Shown here one piece after another: positions 55,599 through 62,797 of a stretch of 64,000 nt of DNA; position 1 is the stretch's first letter; each line of letters starts with the position of its first letter. A program made the translations under genes and the position numbers. Source of the stretch: Acuticoccus sp. MNP-M23 (GTDB lineage: Bacteria; Pseudomonadota; Alphaproteobacteria; Rhizobiales; Amorphaceae). The stretch is from positions 3,092,501 through 3,156,500 of the forward strand of contig NZ_CP133480.1 in the NCBI RefSeq assembly GCF_031195445.1. Direction: 5' to 3'. The notes under the pieces are model-generated. The model had not been told where the DNA came from. It saw only the letters and a program-made list of their open reading frames with translations, and searched no databases.

Positions 55599-56819
55599 TC
55601 AGCCGGCATGAACTTTTATGCTTTCGCCCATATCGTCCAGAATGTTGCGCAAGGTGTCGTAGTCCTCGTGGCGCACCCTTGCCCAGGCGTTGGCCATGTA
55701 GCCGGCCTCCACGGCCTGTGTCGGCGTGCCGGGGGGCGGAAAATGGTGGCTGACGATGTTGTCGCCATATCTGTCCCAGATGGCCTCGGTGCCGCTGTAG
55801 CCGGTGATCCGCCCGTCCCGTTCGGGCCGCAGCGCAATGATGCCGGCGGCGTAACGGCGTGAGGGGGCGACATCCACCCGGCCATGGCAGACGGCCATCG
55901 CCCACTGGCGGTAAAGGTCGAACTCGTTGCCGGCGCAGTAGCTGTCCCACTGGCCAACGCCGGGCGGACGGCAGCCGATTTCGGAAAATTTCAGCCCCCT
56001 GGGTCCGAAGAACCACTCCATGTGCGTTGCCGTGGTCCAGATTCCGAGCGCGTCGATCACCTTCTGGCCCATCGCCTTCACCTCGGCGTAGGCGGGGGCG
56101 TCCATCCGGTTGGTGGCGACAATCTGCGGCGAGATCCAGCGTGTGCGCATGGCTTCCAGCACGTTGGGATAATAGTGGCTGATGAAGTCGTGCTGGACCC
56201 GGCCGCCGACGCACAGCGTGTCGTAGAAGCCTTCGTGGCCTTCGATGAACTCCTCGATGGCGGCCGGCACACCATCGGCAAGCCCGGACCGTTGCACCAC
56301 GTCTTCCAGCTCGGCCGCGTCGCGGGCGCGAAAGGTGCCGGCGGCGCCGGCTGCAGAGCGCGGCTTGATGATGACGGGGAAGCCGAAGGCGCCGGCAAAG
56401 TCGAACGCCTCTGCGGCAGACGAAATGCCCGCAGAGGCCGCGGTCGGCACGCCCGCTGCGCGCAAGACATCCTTCATGGCAACCTTGTCGCGGCAGAGAT
56501 ATGCGGTGCGCGCGGTGGTTCCCGGAATGCCGGTGCGTTCGCGCACATTGGCCACGGGCAGCGTATGGGCCTCGATCACGGTTTCGAGCCGGTCCACCCA
56601 GAACTGGTCCTGCGCCTTGCGCACCGCCCATTCCAGCGCACCCTCGTCGGTGACGGCGCCGATCTGCTGGTAGCTGGCAAGACGTTGCCGCGTTTCCTCG
56701 TCCAGCCAGTCATAAGGCCGCTCTCCGATGCCGTGGACGGTGGCACCGACAGCGTGAAGCGCACGGACGAACTCGCGCTGGTTGCTGGGGAACGATGGCT
56801 CGATGAAAATGACGTTCAT
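55599..56819 (-). CDS. ATP-grasp domain protein (second of two in the cluster)
   Basis: A 406-residue ATP-grasp enzyme of the carbamoyl-phosphate-synthetase/carnosine-synthase-like type: N-terminal Rossmann-like MNVIFIEPSFPSNQREFVRAL, then CRDKVAMKDVLRAAGVPT, FPVIIKPRSAAGAAGT for ATP binding, and LKFSEIGCRPPGVGQWD for Mg ligands. Such enzymes ligate a carboxylate to an amine through an acyl phosphate. Substrates unknown. Four bases separate it from the esterase gene upstream. Confidence 0.87.
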   Translation of the reverse strand: MNVIFIEPSFPSNQREFVRALHAVGATVHGIGERPYDWLDEETRQRLASYQQIGAVTDEGALEWAVRKAQDQFWVDRLETVIEAHTLPVANVRERTGIPGTTARTAYLCRDKVAMKDVLRAAGVPTAASAGISSAAEAFDFAGAFGFPVIIKPRSAAGAAGTFRARDAAELEDVVQRSGLADGVPAAIEEFIEGHEGFYDTLCVGGRVQHDFISHYYPNVLEAMRTRWISPQIVATNRMDAPAYAEVKAMGQKVIDALGIWTTATHMEWFFGPRGLKFSEIGCRPPGVGQWDSYCAGNEFDLYRQWAMAVCHGRVDVAPSRRYAAGIIALRPERDGRITGYSGTEAIWDRYGDNIVSHHFPPPGTPTQAVEAGYMANAWARVRHEDYDTLRNILDDMGESIKVHAG

Positions 56820-56823
56820 GGGA

Positions 56824-57555
56824 TCAGGCCAGTTCGCTGAGGTATCGGGGCAGCATTTCACGCCAGGTGGGCCAGTCGTGGTCGTATTGCGGGCCCCAGG
56901 AATCGACGCGGTTGGGAACGCCCTTGCGGCCCAGAATGCCGGCAAGCCGCCATGCCTCGTCCGGGCTTTCCCAGCGCCCCTCGCCGAACGCCAGCAGAAC
57001 GAAACGGCGCCGGAGGAGGGCGAGCGCCTCACCCTCCAGCCCTTCGGCAAAGAGGAGCGGCGACGAGAGGTAGAAGTCGCCATTGCCGCGAAAGCCGAGC
57101 AGGGTTTCGAGGTCGTAGCTGCCGCTCATCCCGATGGCGGCGCGAAACAGCCATGGATAGCGGCAGGTGACCGCCGTGGCCTTGAACGCGCCGATGGAGG
57201 CGCCGGCGGCAATGATGTCGATCCCGTCGGTGGCGCAATCGGCATGAATGGCTGGCACCACTTCGTGGGCCACGAACGCCTCGAAGCCGTTGAGAAGCCA
57301 GCAGCGGTGTTCCACCGTGCCCCAACCGGCAGCCAGCGCCCGGCCGGCAATGGAATCGACCGAGTAGACCTTGATCCGCCCCGCCTCGATCAGAGGCCAG
57401 ACCGCGCCGATGAGGCCCATCCGCTCCGCCTCGTCAGCATCGCCGCCTGCGGTCGGAAACAGCAGGACCGGGGTGCCGAAATGGCCCCAGCGGATGAGGG
57501 TGGCGGTTTCGCCGATCCGGTCCGAATGCCAGCTAGAAGCCGTCTTGATCGCCAT
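56824..57555 (-). CDS. Alpha/beta-hydrolase-fold esterase
   Basis: A 243-residue putative esterase of the D/S2-like group: TPVLLFPTAGGDADEAER, nucleophile elbow AAGASIGAFKA, and a C-terminal His in QYDHDWPTWREMLP. No signal peptide, so cytoplasmic. The start at 57555 overlaps the upstream ATP-grasp gene by 23 bases. With two ATP-grasp genes and a GCS2 ligase around it, it may hydrolyse or transfer an ester/amide intermediate. Confidence 0.85.
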   Translation of the reverse strand: MAIKTASSWHSDRIGETATLIRWGHFGTPVLLFPTAGGDADEAERMGLIGAVWPLIEAGRIKVYSVDSIAGRALAAGWGTVEHRCWLLNGFEAFVAHEVVPAIHADCATDGIDIIAAGASIGAFKATAVTCRYPWLFRAAIGMSGSYDLETLLGFRGNGDFYLSSPLLFAEGLEGEALALLRRRFVLLAFGEGRWESPDEAWRLAGILGRKGVPNRVDSWGPQYDHDWPTWREMLPRYLSELA

Positions 57556-58792
57556 GGCGGCCTTCCTCTTCGCGCCATTTTTCAACGCGCTGGAAGAACA
57601 GCTCGGTGAACTCGTCCACCTCGTGCGGCGGGAAGAGGGCACGCACCTTCTGGTGGACGGCATCGCGCATCTTCGCCGAGCCGAAGAAGTCGTAGGCGAG
57701 CGCGTCGAGGTGGCTGAGGTGGGTGCGGCAGAAGTCTCGGAATCGCTCGGTTTCGAACCGCTGGTGGGCGATCTTCTCGTATTCCTCAAGCCGTTCGGCG
57801 AGCGGCAGGTCGCGGTCGGCAACGGCGAAGAAGGGCTCCCAGTCCAGCGTCTTGCGCATTTTCTTGTCGGTGGCGGCGGCGAAGATGGACCATCTGAGGT
57901 TCGCCTTTATCAGCCACGGGAAGTGGAAATGGAGGCTGGTCACCTGGCTGTCGGGGCAGGCGTTGGCAAAGTCGATCGGGTGCCAGGTGCCGTTTCGGAG
58001 GAGGGCTTCGCAGGAGTTGAAGTCCCAGCCGAAGAAGGCGTTGATGGTGAGGGTGGTGTTCTCCAGCATCCGCGCGTCTTCGGCGGAGAGGAAGCCGGTT
58101 TCCATGCGGTAGCGGTCGTGGAGCGGGGCGGAGGGGTCGTAGTTGACCTTGCGGGTCTGCGGCCCGAGGCCGACGCAGCGCACGAACCGCTCGAACGGCA
58201 AGACGGCGGCCTGAAGGTTCATCACCTCGGTGCCGCTGGCATCATAGTCGCGCTGGAAATCGCCGGCGTCGTCGATCTTCGAGACGCCCTTCCAGCCGCC
58301 GCCATGGTAGGGTTTCATGAAGAACGGGTAGCCGATCTTCTCGCCAATCTCCTCCAGCGAGAACATTCGCGCGTATTGGCGCAGCGTTGCTTCCAGATCG
58401 TCGGACGCCTCGTACGCCTTGGGCGGCATCAGCCATGTGTTGGGGATGGGGAGGCCGAGGCGCATCATCGCGCAATACGAGGTGTGCTTCTCGTTGGACT
58501 GGAGCGACCACGGGTTGTTGTAGACGTAGAGGTCGTTGAGGACGATGGCTTTCTTGATCCACTCGCGACTGGTGGAGTACCAGTGGGTCAGGCGGTCGAT
58601 CACAACATCGTATTTCACCGGCTGGCGCAGGTTGAACGGCTCGATGGTGACCCGTTCGCAGTTGAAGTCGAGGCGGTCGGCACCCAGTGCCATCCCGTCA
58701 AGCTTCAGACCCTCGAAGAGGCTTTCGTAGCAGATGGGCCAGCAGATATCGGCGCCGAGCGAGAGGCCGATGTTGACGTTGCGCTGTGCCAT
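57533..58792 (-). CDS. ATP-grasp-like protein (first of two in the cluster)
   Basis: A 419-residue protein. The central part reads as ATP-grasp: SNEKHTSYCAMMRLGLPIPNTWLMPP, PFFMKPYHGGGWKGVSKI (ATP-binding lysine and glycine loop) and LRNGTWHPIDFANACPDSQ (metal-ligand region, with Asp/Asn in place of Glu/Asn). The C-terminal 130 residues are helical and Arg/Glu/Phe rich. Similar proteins are usually annotated only as RimK or glutathione-synthase-like. Start at 58792 is by similarity; an ATG-like codon 21 bases upstream is an alternative. Confidence 0.8.
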   Translation of the reverse strand: MAQRNVNIGLSLGADICWPICYESLFEGLKLDGMALGADRLDFNCERVTIEPFNLRQPVKYDVVIDRLTHWYSTSREWIKKAIVLNDLYVYNNPWSLQSNEKHTSYCAMMRLGLPIPNTWLMPPKAYEASDDLEATLRQYARMFSLEEIGEKIGYPFFMKPYHGGGWKGVSKIDDAGDFQRDYDASGTEVMNLQAAVLPFERFVRCVGLGPQTRKVNYDPSAPLHDRYRMETGFLSAEDARMLENTTLTINAFFGWDFNSCEALLRNGTWHPIDFANACPDSQVTSLHFHFPWLIKANLRWSIFAAATDKKMRKTLDWEPFFAVADRDLPLAERLEEYEKIAHQRFETERFRDFCRTHLSHLDALAYDFFGSAKMRDAVHQKVRALFPPHEVDEFTELFFQRVEKWREEEGRHGDQDGF

Positions 58793-58834
58793 AGTCTCTC
58801 CCTTGCAACGCAACCTCGCGAGGGAGCGCTTTAT

Positions 58835-60007
58835 TTAGTTGGGAGTATCTGACCGGTTCAGTGCCCACATCAAGCCGTCGCGCAGTTGATCGCGCCAATT
58901 GTGCCAGTGGTGCCCGTCCCACGCACTCTTGAACCGGACATCGACACCCTGTTCGCGCAGCAAGCCGGCCAGCTTCCGGTTCTCGTCGGCAAGGCCTTCC
59001 AGCTCGCCGGTTGAAACGAAGGCGCGTGTCCCGATGAGCTTGGGCGCCCGGCGCAGCACGGCAACCAGCTTGGCGATCCGCACGAACACAGGGTGCTCGC
59101 GCGATTGCAGGGTCTTCTCGTCGAGGATGAACGAGCCCGATTGCAGGATCAGACCGCCGAAAACACCCGGAAAGCGAAATGCTGTGGAAAGGGATGCGAC
59201 GGCGCCGAGGCTGGCGCCGAGAAGAACCCGGTCTGCCGGGTCATCCGCCAGTTTCAGCCGCGCTTCCAGCGCCGGCAGCATTTCCGTCACGATGTAGCGG
59301 GCGTGGCGGCGGCCCCTCGGGTATTCGCCCATGCGATCGCCGGTCTGCACAAGGGCTGCGACCAGGGGCGGGATGTCGCCGGCATGGATGAGGTTGTCCA
59401 GCGCGATGGAGAGGTTGGCGTAGGTGACGAAATCTGCCCCGTCGTGGATGACGACGAGGGGGTAGGGCGCGTCTCGATCGTGGTTCGGCGGCAGGTAGAT
59501 CCGCTCGTGCCGCGTCTCGCCGAACGTCTCGCTCTGCACCTCGAACGGCGCGATGATGCCGCGCGGGGCGCCGTGGTCCTCCGTCCACGCCGGCCGGGCA
59601 TAGCCGTAGGTGCGGCAGGCGGAGTTTTCGCCAAAGGGGTCGGCGGCGCGCTCGGGGTTGAGCTGGTCGAGCTGCCACTCTTCGTGATCCCCATAGCGGA
59701 TGGCAAGCTTGTACTCGAAGCGGCCGCCATCCTCCACGGCGAGGACCAGGAGCCACAGGTCGGTGTCCGGCACGCGCCAGAAGGCGGCACGGTCGATCCC
59801 TGCGTGGATCCAGCGCACCATCGCCACTGCGTCGGCATGGCCGCGCCAGGCAAACAGTGCCGACCCCGGCTCGACCAGGGGAAAGTCGTGGTCGGCCAGA
59901 AAGCGGTCGACCGCTTCGGGCGTCGGCGTGTTTTCCAGAAGTGCGGCGGCGGCCGGATGAAGGCGCGGCTCGGTGCCGGCGGCGCTGCGGTCCATGTGGA
60001 TGGTCAT
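58835..60007 (-). CDS. Enterochelin-esterase-like alpha/beta hydrolase
   Basis: A 390-residue protein of the Fes/IroD type: an N-terminal immunoglobulin-like domain (LFAWRGHADAVAMVRWIHAG, FEYKLAIRYG) and a C-terminal esterase with RIYLPPNHDRDAPYPLVVIHDGADF, nucleophile VLLGASLGAVASL and a final His in DGHHWHNWRDQL. No signal peptide. No siderophore genes are nearby, so ester- or amide-bond editing for the cluster is a better guess. A possible promoter is at 60079-60107. Confidence 0.85.
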   Translation of the reverse strand: MTIHMDRSAAGTEPRLHPAAAALLENTPTPEAVDRFLADHDFPLVEPGSALFAWRGHADAVAMVRWIHAGIDRAAFWRVPDTDLWLLVLAVEDGGRFEYKLAIRYGDHEEWQLDQLNPERAADPFGENSACRTYGYARPAWTEDHGAPRGIIAPFEVQSETFGETRHERIYLPPNHDRDAPYPLVVIHDGADFVTYANLSIALDNLIHAGDIPPLVAALVQTGDRMGEYPRGRRHARYIVTEMLPALEARLKLADDPADRVLLGASLGAVASLSTAFRFPGVFGGLILQSGSFILDEKTLQSREHPVFVRIAKLVAVLRRAPKLIGTRAFVSTGELEGLADENRKLAGLLREQGVDVRFKSAWDGHHWHNWRDQLRDGLMWALNRSDTPN

Positions 60008-60078
60008 CGACGGGCCTTTCCGGTTGGCACTGCCCGTCTAGAGGTGCTTGCCTGCCTGGGACTGTGATTGCACATAGG

Positions 60079-60107
60079 CAGATAGGCCTTCATGCTGCGC
60101 TGCACAA
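60079..60107 (-). promoter_or_regulatory. Possible promoter upstream of the Fes-like gene
   Basis: On the minus strand TTGTGC (60107-60102) and TATCTG (60084-60079) are 17 bases apart, in the 132-base gap between the GCS2 ligase and the Fes-like gene. It could give the last four genes a promoter of their own. Sequence similarity to the consensus is moderate only. Confidence 0.3.
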
Positions 60108-60139
60108 TGCGGCACTTGGGGTGTGTGTGGCGACGCCGG

Positions 60140-61291
60140 CTAGGGAAAGGTCGGCGTATCGACCGCAACGGACTGCTCGACCAGCCAGTCGACGATCTTC
60201 ACCTGCGCCTCGCGGTCGCTTTCGCCGGCCTCAAGCGCGGTGTTGTAGATCTTCAGCTGATGGTCGGCGCTGGTGCCGCGGGCGACGATCTGGCGGGCAT
60301 TCTCCACCTCCGCCCGGCAACCGACCGCCTCCGCGCAATCGCCCAGCAGCTCGATCATTTCCTCCACCAGATCGGCGAACGGCACCTTCTTGCGGATGCC
60401 GAAGTCGCCCAGCTCCGCTTCCACGCCGTAGCGCTGGGCGCGCCACTTGTTCTCCTGCACCAGAAGGCGGCGGTACTGGCGCCAGCGCTGGTTGTTCTTG
60501 CGAAGGTGGAGGAGGAAGGCCAGCGTCGCCTGGTAGAGCGCGGCAATGGTGAGCCCGTCCTCCACATAGGTGCAGATGTCGCAGACCCTGAGTTCAAGCG
60601 TCGGGTGGTTGCTGGACGGGCGGATGTCCCACCAGATCTTGGACGGATCGGTGACCATGCCGGTGGCGGCGAGATCGTCGGTCAGCTCGGTCCAGTCGCT
60701 CCAGCTTTCGAACGTTTCGGGCAGGCCGGAGCGCGGCAGGTCACCGATGATGATGGGGCGAAACGCCTTCAGCCCCGTGTCGTGCCCCTCCCAGAAGGGC
60801 GATGAGGTGGACAGCGCCAGAAGGTGCGGCATGAAGTAGGTGACCTGACCCATCAGGTCCACGCGCAGGTTCTTGTCCTCTATGCCGGCATGGACGTGCA
60901 TGCCGCAGATGGACATGCGGCGGGCCAGCGAGCGGTGTTCCGCGCCGATGATCCGGTAGCGCTCCATGTCCACCGGTTCCTGCTCCTGCCAGTGGGCCCA
61001 GGGGTGGGTGGAGGCGGCAATCATCCGCATCCCGTGGTCCTTGGCGGCCTCGGCCACAGCGCGGCGCATGGTGATCAGCTCGGCCCGCGCGTCGGCCACC
61101 GTGTGGCAGACGCCGGTGCCGATCTCCACCTGGCTTTGCAGGAACTCATGGGTGACGTTGTTGCCCAGCACCTCCTTGCACCGCGCCATGAACCCCTTTG
61201 GCGGACGGGAGGCGAGCGCGCGGGTTTCGGGGTCGATCAGAAGATATTCTTCCTCGACGCCGATCGTAATCTTCTCGCCCATCGCGGCCAT
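60140..61291 (-). CDS. Carboxylate-amine ligase, GCS2 / YbdK family
   Basis: A 383-residue GCS2-type ligase: N-terminal ITIGVEEEYLLIDPETRAL (acidic metal cluster), SQVEIGTGVC, ICGMHVHAGIED, and DIRPSSNHPTLELRVCD. Family members join glutamate or another carboxylate to an amine; YbdK has weak gamma-glutamylcysteine synthetase activity. Starts at 61291 or 61282 (both ATG). It heads the minus-strand cluster with two ATP-grasp and two esterase genes, which suggests a small peptide or amide product rather than glutathione. Confidence 0.88.
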   Translation of the reverse strand: MAAMGEKITIGVEEEYLLIDPETRALASRPPKGFMARCKEVLGNNVTHEFLQSQVEIGTGVCHTVADARAELITMRRAVAEAAKDHGMRMIAASTHPWAHWQEQEPVDMERYRIIGAEHRSLARRMSICGMHVHAGIEDKNLRVDLMGQVTYFMPHLLALSTSSPFWEGHDTGLKAFRPIIIGDLPRSGLPETFESWSDWTELTDDLAATGMVTDPSKIWWDIRPSSNHPTLELRVCDICTYVEDGLTIAALYQATLAFLLHLRKNNQRWRQYRRLLVQENKWRAQRYGVEAELGDFGIRKKVPFADLVEEMIELLGDCAEAVGCRAEVENARQIVARGTSADHQLKIYNTALEAGESDREAQVKIVDWLVEQSVAVDTPTFP

Positions 61292-62131: not shown

Positions 62132-62797
62132 ATGGACTGGACCCGGCAGCTGGACAATTATTGCGAGCGGCTCGACCCTTCCTTCTGGGCCGAACCGGTC
62201 AATGCGGTGACCAACGCGGCTTTCGTCATTGCGGCGATCATTGCGCTGATTGTGGCGCAGCGCCGCGGACGTCTCGACTGGCCGGTGGTGGTGCTGGCCG
62301 CGATCATCGCCATCGTCGGCACCGGGTCATTCCTCTTTCACACGTTCGCGACGGTCTGGGCGGTGATGGCGGACGTGATCCCCATCCAGATCTTCATCCT
62401 GTTTTATTTCGCGCTGGCCATGCGCCGTTTTGCCGGTCTGCCCTGGTGGGGGGCCGTGGTGGCGACGGCGATGTTCATGGTGCTGTCTTTCGCTGGCGGC
62501 AACGCGCTTGGCCAGCTGGCCGGCAATGCGCTCAATGGGTCGGAGGGGTATGTCACGCCGCTCCTGGCGCTGATTGTGGTGGGCGCGTGGCTCCGCACAC
62601 GCGGACGGACGGATGCAGGGCGCGCGCTCATTACAGGCGGGCTCCTGTTCGCCGTCTCGCTCACCTTCCGGACGATTGATGCCGGTGTGTGCCCGTCTTT
62701 TGCGCTGGGCACACACTTCATCTGGCATATCCTAAACGGGATATTGCTCGGCTATCTCACCATCGCATTGGCGCGATATGGCCGCACCGCCGCCTAG
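62132..62797 (+). CDS. Ceramidase-family (alkaline ceramidase-like) membrane protein
   Basis: A 221-residue membrane protein with about seven helices and the ceramidase superfamily pattern: [47 protein letters not shown] and [14 protein letters not shown]. The three His/Asp metal ligands expected for a CREST hydrolase (H in FHT, D in MAD, H in HFIWH) are present. Whether it acts on sphingolipids is unknown. Its stop overlaps the convergent tpiA stop by 4 bases. Confidence 0.85.

Follow-up and report, generated by a model that had tools for sequence, protein, structure and literature searches.

ATP-grasp and GCS2 enzymes form amide bonds through acyl phosphates, and GCS2 enzymes, the relatives of RimK and LysX, and BesA use glutamate. 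Esterases of the CE1 family can transfer acyl groups as well; antigen 85 moves an acyl group onto an alcohol. Predicted amidoligase clusters mixing GCS2, ATP-grasp, and hydrolase genes were reportedly described by Iyer et al. in 2009, and the set treated here shares this mixture. We analyzed a 64,000-nucleotide stretch of the genome of Acuticoccus sp. MNP-M23 (contig NZ_CP133480.1, positions 3,092,501 to 3,156,500), hereafter the window, which carries a cluster of three predicted ligase genes and two esterase genes. The host genome is 5.16 Mb in size and 98.3% complete. An earlier note on this DNA had read the cluster as a GCS2 gene, a Fes-like esterase gene, an ATP-grasp gene, a second esterase gene, and a second ATP-grasp gene on one strand. 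This gene content was borne out, and the five genes, named A to E, are complete and uninterrupted open reading frames (ORFs), all on the minus strand:

60140..61291, minus strand: A, carboxylate-amine ligase of the GCS2 / YbdK type, 383 amino acids (family cut-off, tree clade)
58835..60007, minus strand: B, Fes-like CE1 esterase with an Enterochelin_N-like N-terminal region (below cut-off), 390 amino acids (Pfam, alignment)
57533..58792, minus strand: C, ATP-grasp ligase with a predicted RimK/LysX/ArgX-like fold and a helical C-terminal extension, 419 amino acids (model, Foldseek)
56824..57555, minus strand: D, predicted single-domain CE1-like esterase, 243 amino acids (model, Foldseek, alignment)
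55599..56819, minus strand: E, ATP-grasp protein, probably of the L-amino-acid-ligase kind, 406 amino acids (PF02222, PDB sequences, alignment)

The last three genes overlap or lie a few bases apart, as had been noted: C and D overlap by 23 nucleotides (nt) and D and E are separated by 4 nt, while the A-B and B-C gaps are 132 and 42 nt. A graspetide cluster would carry a ribosomal precursor peptide gene in the operon; in B-E, the part considered for this, the gaps are at most 42 nt. The note knew of no function for this set, and indeed Pfam, NCBIfam, and PADLOC name none. None of the five proteins matched a PADLOC model of anti-phage defence at an E-value of 0.001, and no paper on this gene set was found in the open-access literature searched.

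Conservation of the Cluster and Its Core

The alignment of C was used to scan the genome contigs of 84,980 species, with one genome per species. The scan gave 196 relatives of C, and the best 80 were kept (L010-L089), so the following counts refer to the closer members of the family. Several of these loci are near-copies (in Microvirga, Granulosicoccus, and Tropicimonas), and some of the counted genes are pieces at contig ends. In the 80 loci, whose record titles come from seven phyla, C was 61-83% identical to that of the window. Six-frame profile searches found B in 78, D in 74, E in 60, and A in 21 loci, and the counts of B and D were identical by tblastn with the window proteins. Where the locus had room, B was the immediate 5' neighbour of C in 75 of 78 loci and D its immediate 3' neighbour in 73 of 78. 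The distance from the stop codon of C to the D domain had a median of -7 nt (74 loci). Since B-C-D occurred in this order in 72/80 loci and A-B-C-D-E in 17/80, the latter restricted to the 29 closest loci (L010-L038), the cluster is real and not a chance association. B-C-D is the constant core of the set.

Conservation does not extend to the genes on either side of the window cluster. We searched 82 loci (L010-L091) for eleven neighbouring ORFs of the window, some of which may not be genes. Three of them matched, each in two or three loci, and matches above 100 bits came only from the glutathione S-transferase (GST) gene and the ceramidase-like gene, in L010 and L090, which are apparently one same-genus contig seen twice.

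The earlier note had taken loose conservation of the five genes, or a known housekeeping role for each, as grounds for giving up its reading, with a neighbourhood survey as the check. In the survey neither description fits B-C-D, and A and E fit in part. The family is rare. C was present in 2 of 398 genomes drawn from the phylum of the window and in 3 of 8 genomes of its genus, the window's own genome being included in both counts. Six further genomes, of nine that matched, held only pieces of at most 23 bits; these belong to other ATP-grasp proteins and were not counted as C. No plasmid relatives of C were found.

Predicted Activities of the Five Proteins

A matched GCS2 (PF04107) with 192.8 bits and passed the cut-off of NF010039, 'carboxylate-amine ligase' (485.9 vs 371 bits). 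It therefore resembles GCS2 enzymes of the PRK13515/NF010039 kind, whose solved relative is E. coli YbdK, and it matches the YbdK structures 1r8g and 1tt4. It differs from them in two respects, since window-type A forms a clade of its own in the GCS2 tree (12 of 52 rows, support 100, branch 0.85; the tree took in 13 of the 21 A-bearing loci), and no FGase gene lies beside it, unlike many ordinary GCS2 genes of the class. There were 48 NF010039 matches in the class of the window, in 46 of 190 genomes. Among the 30 best-scoring of these (L119-L148), all ordinary GCS2, 26 had a nearby gene of one BLAST group, which is FGase (PF05013) by one scanned member. Window-type A was seen only in the close clade of the cluster, and its other members lay only beside B. 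In L035, L046, and L081, an ordinary GCS2 gene was part of the cluster and lay 3' of D or E.

The idea that all genomes without A at the locus keep it elsewhere was rejected. Seven of eight such genomes had NF010039 genes (eight in total), yet only one of these was window-type (L114, with a B gene alongside), and the rest fell among ordinary GCS2. The genome of L114 (G449) seems to have a split cluster, with window-type GCS2 and a B-like gene on the other strand in L114, and C-D-E with only a fragment of B in L016.

B matched the Esterase family PF00756 (75.2 bits vs a cut-off of 22) and stayed below the cut-off of the enterochelin esterase NF007758 (96.6 vs 222 bits). Its Enterochelin_N-like region had an E-value of 0.003, below cut-off, and B of L054 showed a CBM_20 match (E-value 0.007), also below cut-off. 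Solved relatives of B include proteins named isoamylase or isoamylase-N. D matched PF00756 weakly (24.4 vs 22 bits), and by sequence it had no match among solved proteins at an E-value of 0.1. Its AlphaFold model (mean predicted local distance difference test score, pLDDT, 94.9) was matched by Foldseek to feruloyl esterases, S-formylglutathione hydrolases, and antigen 85 (best E-value 2e-13), and some of its solved relatives carry CBM48.

The putative catalytic residues Ser266-Glu337-His366 of B were invariant in 43/43 aligned sequences and the putative Ser120-Glu196-His226 of D in 32/32. In the model of D, Ser120 follows strand 114-119, Glu196 follows 185-190, and His226 follows 215-219, which are the places expected in CE1 enzymes. 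B and D thus belong to the CE1 / PF00756 esterases, D by its predicted fold and B by its sequence, and both look catalytically complete. With Fes, antigen 85, S-formylglutathione hydrolase, and CE1 feruloyl esterases they share the family, and D also the predicted fold and the Ser-Glu-His order. B differs by its score under the enterochelin esterase cut-off, and D by having no solved sequence relative.

C reached no Pfam cut-off, and its structure was modelled because matches to PDB sequences were weak and confined to the region around residues 134-221. The AlphaFold model, built with 57 sequences, had a mean pLDDT of 87.8, and Foldseek matched it to the ATP-grasp enzymes RimK, ArgX, LysX, and Ddl (best E-value 6e-10). 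Lys160, Glu262, Asp274, and Asn277 were invariant in 57/57 aligned sequences. C is thus predicted to have the fold of ATP-grasp carboxylate-amine ligases, with a lysine and putative acidic metal ligands. The likeness to the glutamate ligases RimK, LysX, and ArgX lies in this fold. The difference lies in an extra helical C-terminal part, a D-x-x-N motif, and scores below the family cut-offs (19.7 and 19.2 bits vs 143.4 and 275.6 for TIGR00768 and TIGR02144).

E matched ATP-grasp PF02222 with 40.3 bits, and its nearest PDB sequences were the L-amino acid ligase 4wd3 (E-value 1.6e-11) and BacD (6e-8). Lys112, Lys152, Glu190, His266, Glu268, Glu280, and Arg284 were invariant in 29/29 aligned sequences. 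Judged by sequence, E fits the ATP-grasp carboxylate-amine ligases. It matches the L-amino acid ligases (4wd3, BacD, and BL00235) over about residues 58-288 and keeps their H-x-E and E-I-x-x-R-type motifs, and it differs in being far under the BacD cut-off of NF053745 (27 vs 850 bits). E is broken by an in-frame stop in L011 and is in pieces in L018 and L031, as if it were being lost in some lineages.

Proposed Pathway

The earlier note had proposed stepwise assembly of a small peptide or amide by the five genes. Part of this stands, as three ligase and two hydrolase genes are kept together with catalytic-type residues, and part does not, as the five are not one fixed unit and only B-C-D is constant. 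Our preferred reading, to which we give about an even chance, is that the cluster is an operon whose enzymes assemble a small amide or short peptide in the cytosol, forming its bonds one by one at the expense of ATP.

The data show the gene content, the unvarying catalytic-type residues, the predicted folds of C and D, the conservation, and the coupling of the genes; from these we infer the substrates, the order of steps, the role of the esterases, and the location in the cell as follows. The most likely product of A is a gamma-glutamyl amide or a related bond between glutamate and an amine. E would join an amino acid in the manner of the L-amino acid ligases, and C would add a further carboxylate-amine bond, each of the three acting via an acyl phosphate. 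Glutamate is the likeliest building block by analogy, because GCS2 enzymes, the RimK/LysX relatives, and BesA handle it. B and D most likely act on an acyl or aminoacyl ester carried by the product, either transferring or removing it, and transfer to an alcohol is as likely as hydrolysis. The 'editing' role that the note had considered for them is a guess. The product probably stays in the cell, because no exporter family recurs beside the core; none was found among the annotated neighbour families present in four or more loci.

Several observations weigh against this pathway. At its metal site, C has an invariant D-x-x-N motif, compared to E-x-N in RimK. Some loci of its own clade lack window-type A. 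E was searched for at an E-value of 1e-40 in ten genomes, namely nine of the 20 with no E at the locus and that of L018 with its E piece, and was not found in eight of the ten. A fixed order of three ligases is therefore not needed by all. No relative with an established substrate or product was found, and B and D were taken to lack signal peptides on inspection by eye only. Moreover, two kinds of importer gene occur near the cluster and would also fit uptake and degradation. In the window, E is followed on the same strand by the gene of an RbsA-like ATPase of an ATP-binding cassette (ABC) importer (566 bits vs a cut-off of 745), and a gene of the DctM subunit of tripartite ATP-independent periplasmic (TRAP) importers was present in 5/80 loci (L014, L021, L028, L030, and L031), at varying distance from the cluster.

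With C at least 61% identical across 80 loci from seven phyla by record title, the set should make something chemically defined and useful.

Two Versions of the Gene Set

The window is a short version of a wider gene set found in several phyla. In the tree of C, which took in 57 of 81 sequences, the clade of the window had a support of 100 and otherwise held 11 rows from alphaproteobacteria and one from the gammaproteobacterium Granulosicoccus. It represents the version with A. The second version was found among the 51 loci L039-L089, all without window-type A. An S51-type peptidase was present in 41 of them, the glycogen synthase GlgA in 28, and the E paralogues E2 or E3 in 29. Some loci also had a GCS2-CBS protein (9), GlgC (7), GlgB (6), a BesA/PGM1-like ligase (6), or FGase (4). 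Each of these family names is based on one or two scanned members, and the only S51 protein scanned was just over its cut-off (25.4 vs 23.9). The S51 gene overlapped B by 4 nt in 28/41 loci, and GlgA overlapped E by 4 nt in 13/24.

By record title, the loci L039-L089 are mainly from Gammaproteobacteria and Myxococcota, with a few from alphaproteobacteria and one or a few each from Planctomycetota, Gemmatimonadota, Acidobacteriota, Actinomycetota, and Eisenbacteria; nearly all are metagenome bins, and some placements may be wrong. At least two ATP-grasp stretches (two to five) were present in 64 of the 80 loci of both versions. A and E2 or E3 may be substitutes for each other, as they never occurred in the same locus (0/80, with A in 21 and E2 or E3 in 29), though a tree-aware test of this had too few independent pairs. 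The set is small and comes in two versions, either with GCS2 or with the S51-type peptidase, extra ligases, and GlgA. The reading of the earlier note was right in kind, and the system is wider than the five genes of the window, as other lineages add a peptidase, more ligases, and a glycogen synthase.

Within the preferred pathway, the lineages with GlgA and S51 may hold a variant that puts the product on an alpha-glucan, or makes the product together with it, because these two genes extend the same core elsewhere. A stronger link to glucan is possible, at a rather low probability: the set would make an amino-acid-modified alpha-glucan or a glucosylated peptide, with amides from the ATP-grasp enzymes, glucosyl units from GlgA, ester groups from the CE1 enzymes, and recycling by S51, and the window would be a reduced form with another acceptor. 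The frequency of GlgA and its overlap with E fit this, as do the Enterochelin_N-like region and the CBM_20 match of B, both below cut-off, the isoamylase-type relatives of B, and the CBM48 carriers among those of D. At least one of GlgA, GlgB, and GlgC was found in 34/51 distant loci, but none of them near any of the 29 close-clade loci. Adjacency may, moreover, mean shared storage regulation and not shared chemistry.

The genome of the window had no GlgA over the family cut-off (best 48 vs 328 bits). Of two further genomes with C, G001 (89% complete) had none over the cut-off either, and in the same-genus G007 GlgA is present but sits on another contig than C. S51 relatives were found in none of these three genomes, in a search without a positive control. 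GlgA and S51 thus seem unneeded for the core, and the idea that the core needs GlgA was rejected on these GlgA results. Fourteen genomes had been picked for GlgA at the locus, so that 14/14 passed the family cut-off by design, which is no test of linkage; ten of them had a second GlgA match, below the cut-off in six. It is unlikely that B-C-D with its ligases serves a class of bacterial glucan conjugates (peptides or amino acids on glycogen or a glucoside) in seven phyla, with the glucan-free window form being ancestral or reduced. A chemical basis for the GlgA link would point towards bacteria having a peptide-modified storage glucan.

The same neighbours could belong to an amino-acid-based storage or compatible-solute pathway that is co-regulated with glycogen and chemically separate from it, in which the S51-type and FGase hydrolases free stored amino acids. 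The S51 family includes cyanophycinases, and the counts of S51, FGase, and glg genes given above and the lack of a recurrent exporter family fit such a store. We consider it quite unlikely, as no enzyme of cyanophycin-synthetase size was among the profiled cluster families, the only S51 protein scanned barely passed its cut-off, and the distribution is rare and patchy. A catabolic or detoxifying operon, with B and D as hydrolases for the esters of an acquired compound and the ligases attaching glutamate to the fragments, would agree with the action of Fes on an imported compound in enterobactin use, the glutamyl amides formed by GCS2, and the two kinds of importer gene, but it is very improbable, since importers are not regularly linked to the core (the window ABC ATPase matched below 100 bits, in 3/82 loci) and so many ATP-grasp enzymes would be costly for degradation.

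The second version varies further among loci. The wider form, such as in L054 and L073, has up to five counted ATP-grasp genes together with the S51-type peptidase and GlgA. In L054, L069, and L073, the gene after the BesA-like one encodes a PurD-like ATP-grasp protein, of a family that is also represented in L067. In nine loci, mostly of Myxococcota (L049, L060, L070, L075, L076, L079, L080, L087, and L089), D is followed by the gene of a large protein, which in the scanned L087 combines a GCS2-like part with a pair of CBS domains. L051 has two GlgA genes, of which the cluster copy scored 829 bits with the cluster profile and the other, beside GlgB and GlgC, 445 bits; this suggests a distinct cluster copy.

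Surroundings of the Cluster

Promoter and terminator scans gave no signal above shuffles, and the GC content gave no sign of an island. Upstream of the cluster lies the GST gene, in the opposite orientation. It is adjoined by the ceramidase-family gene (PF05875, window positions 62132-62797, plus strand), which is ordinary-looking.

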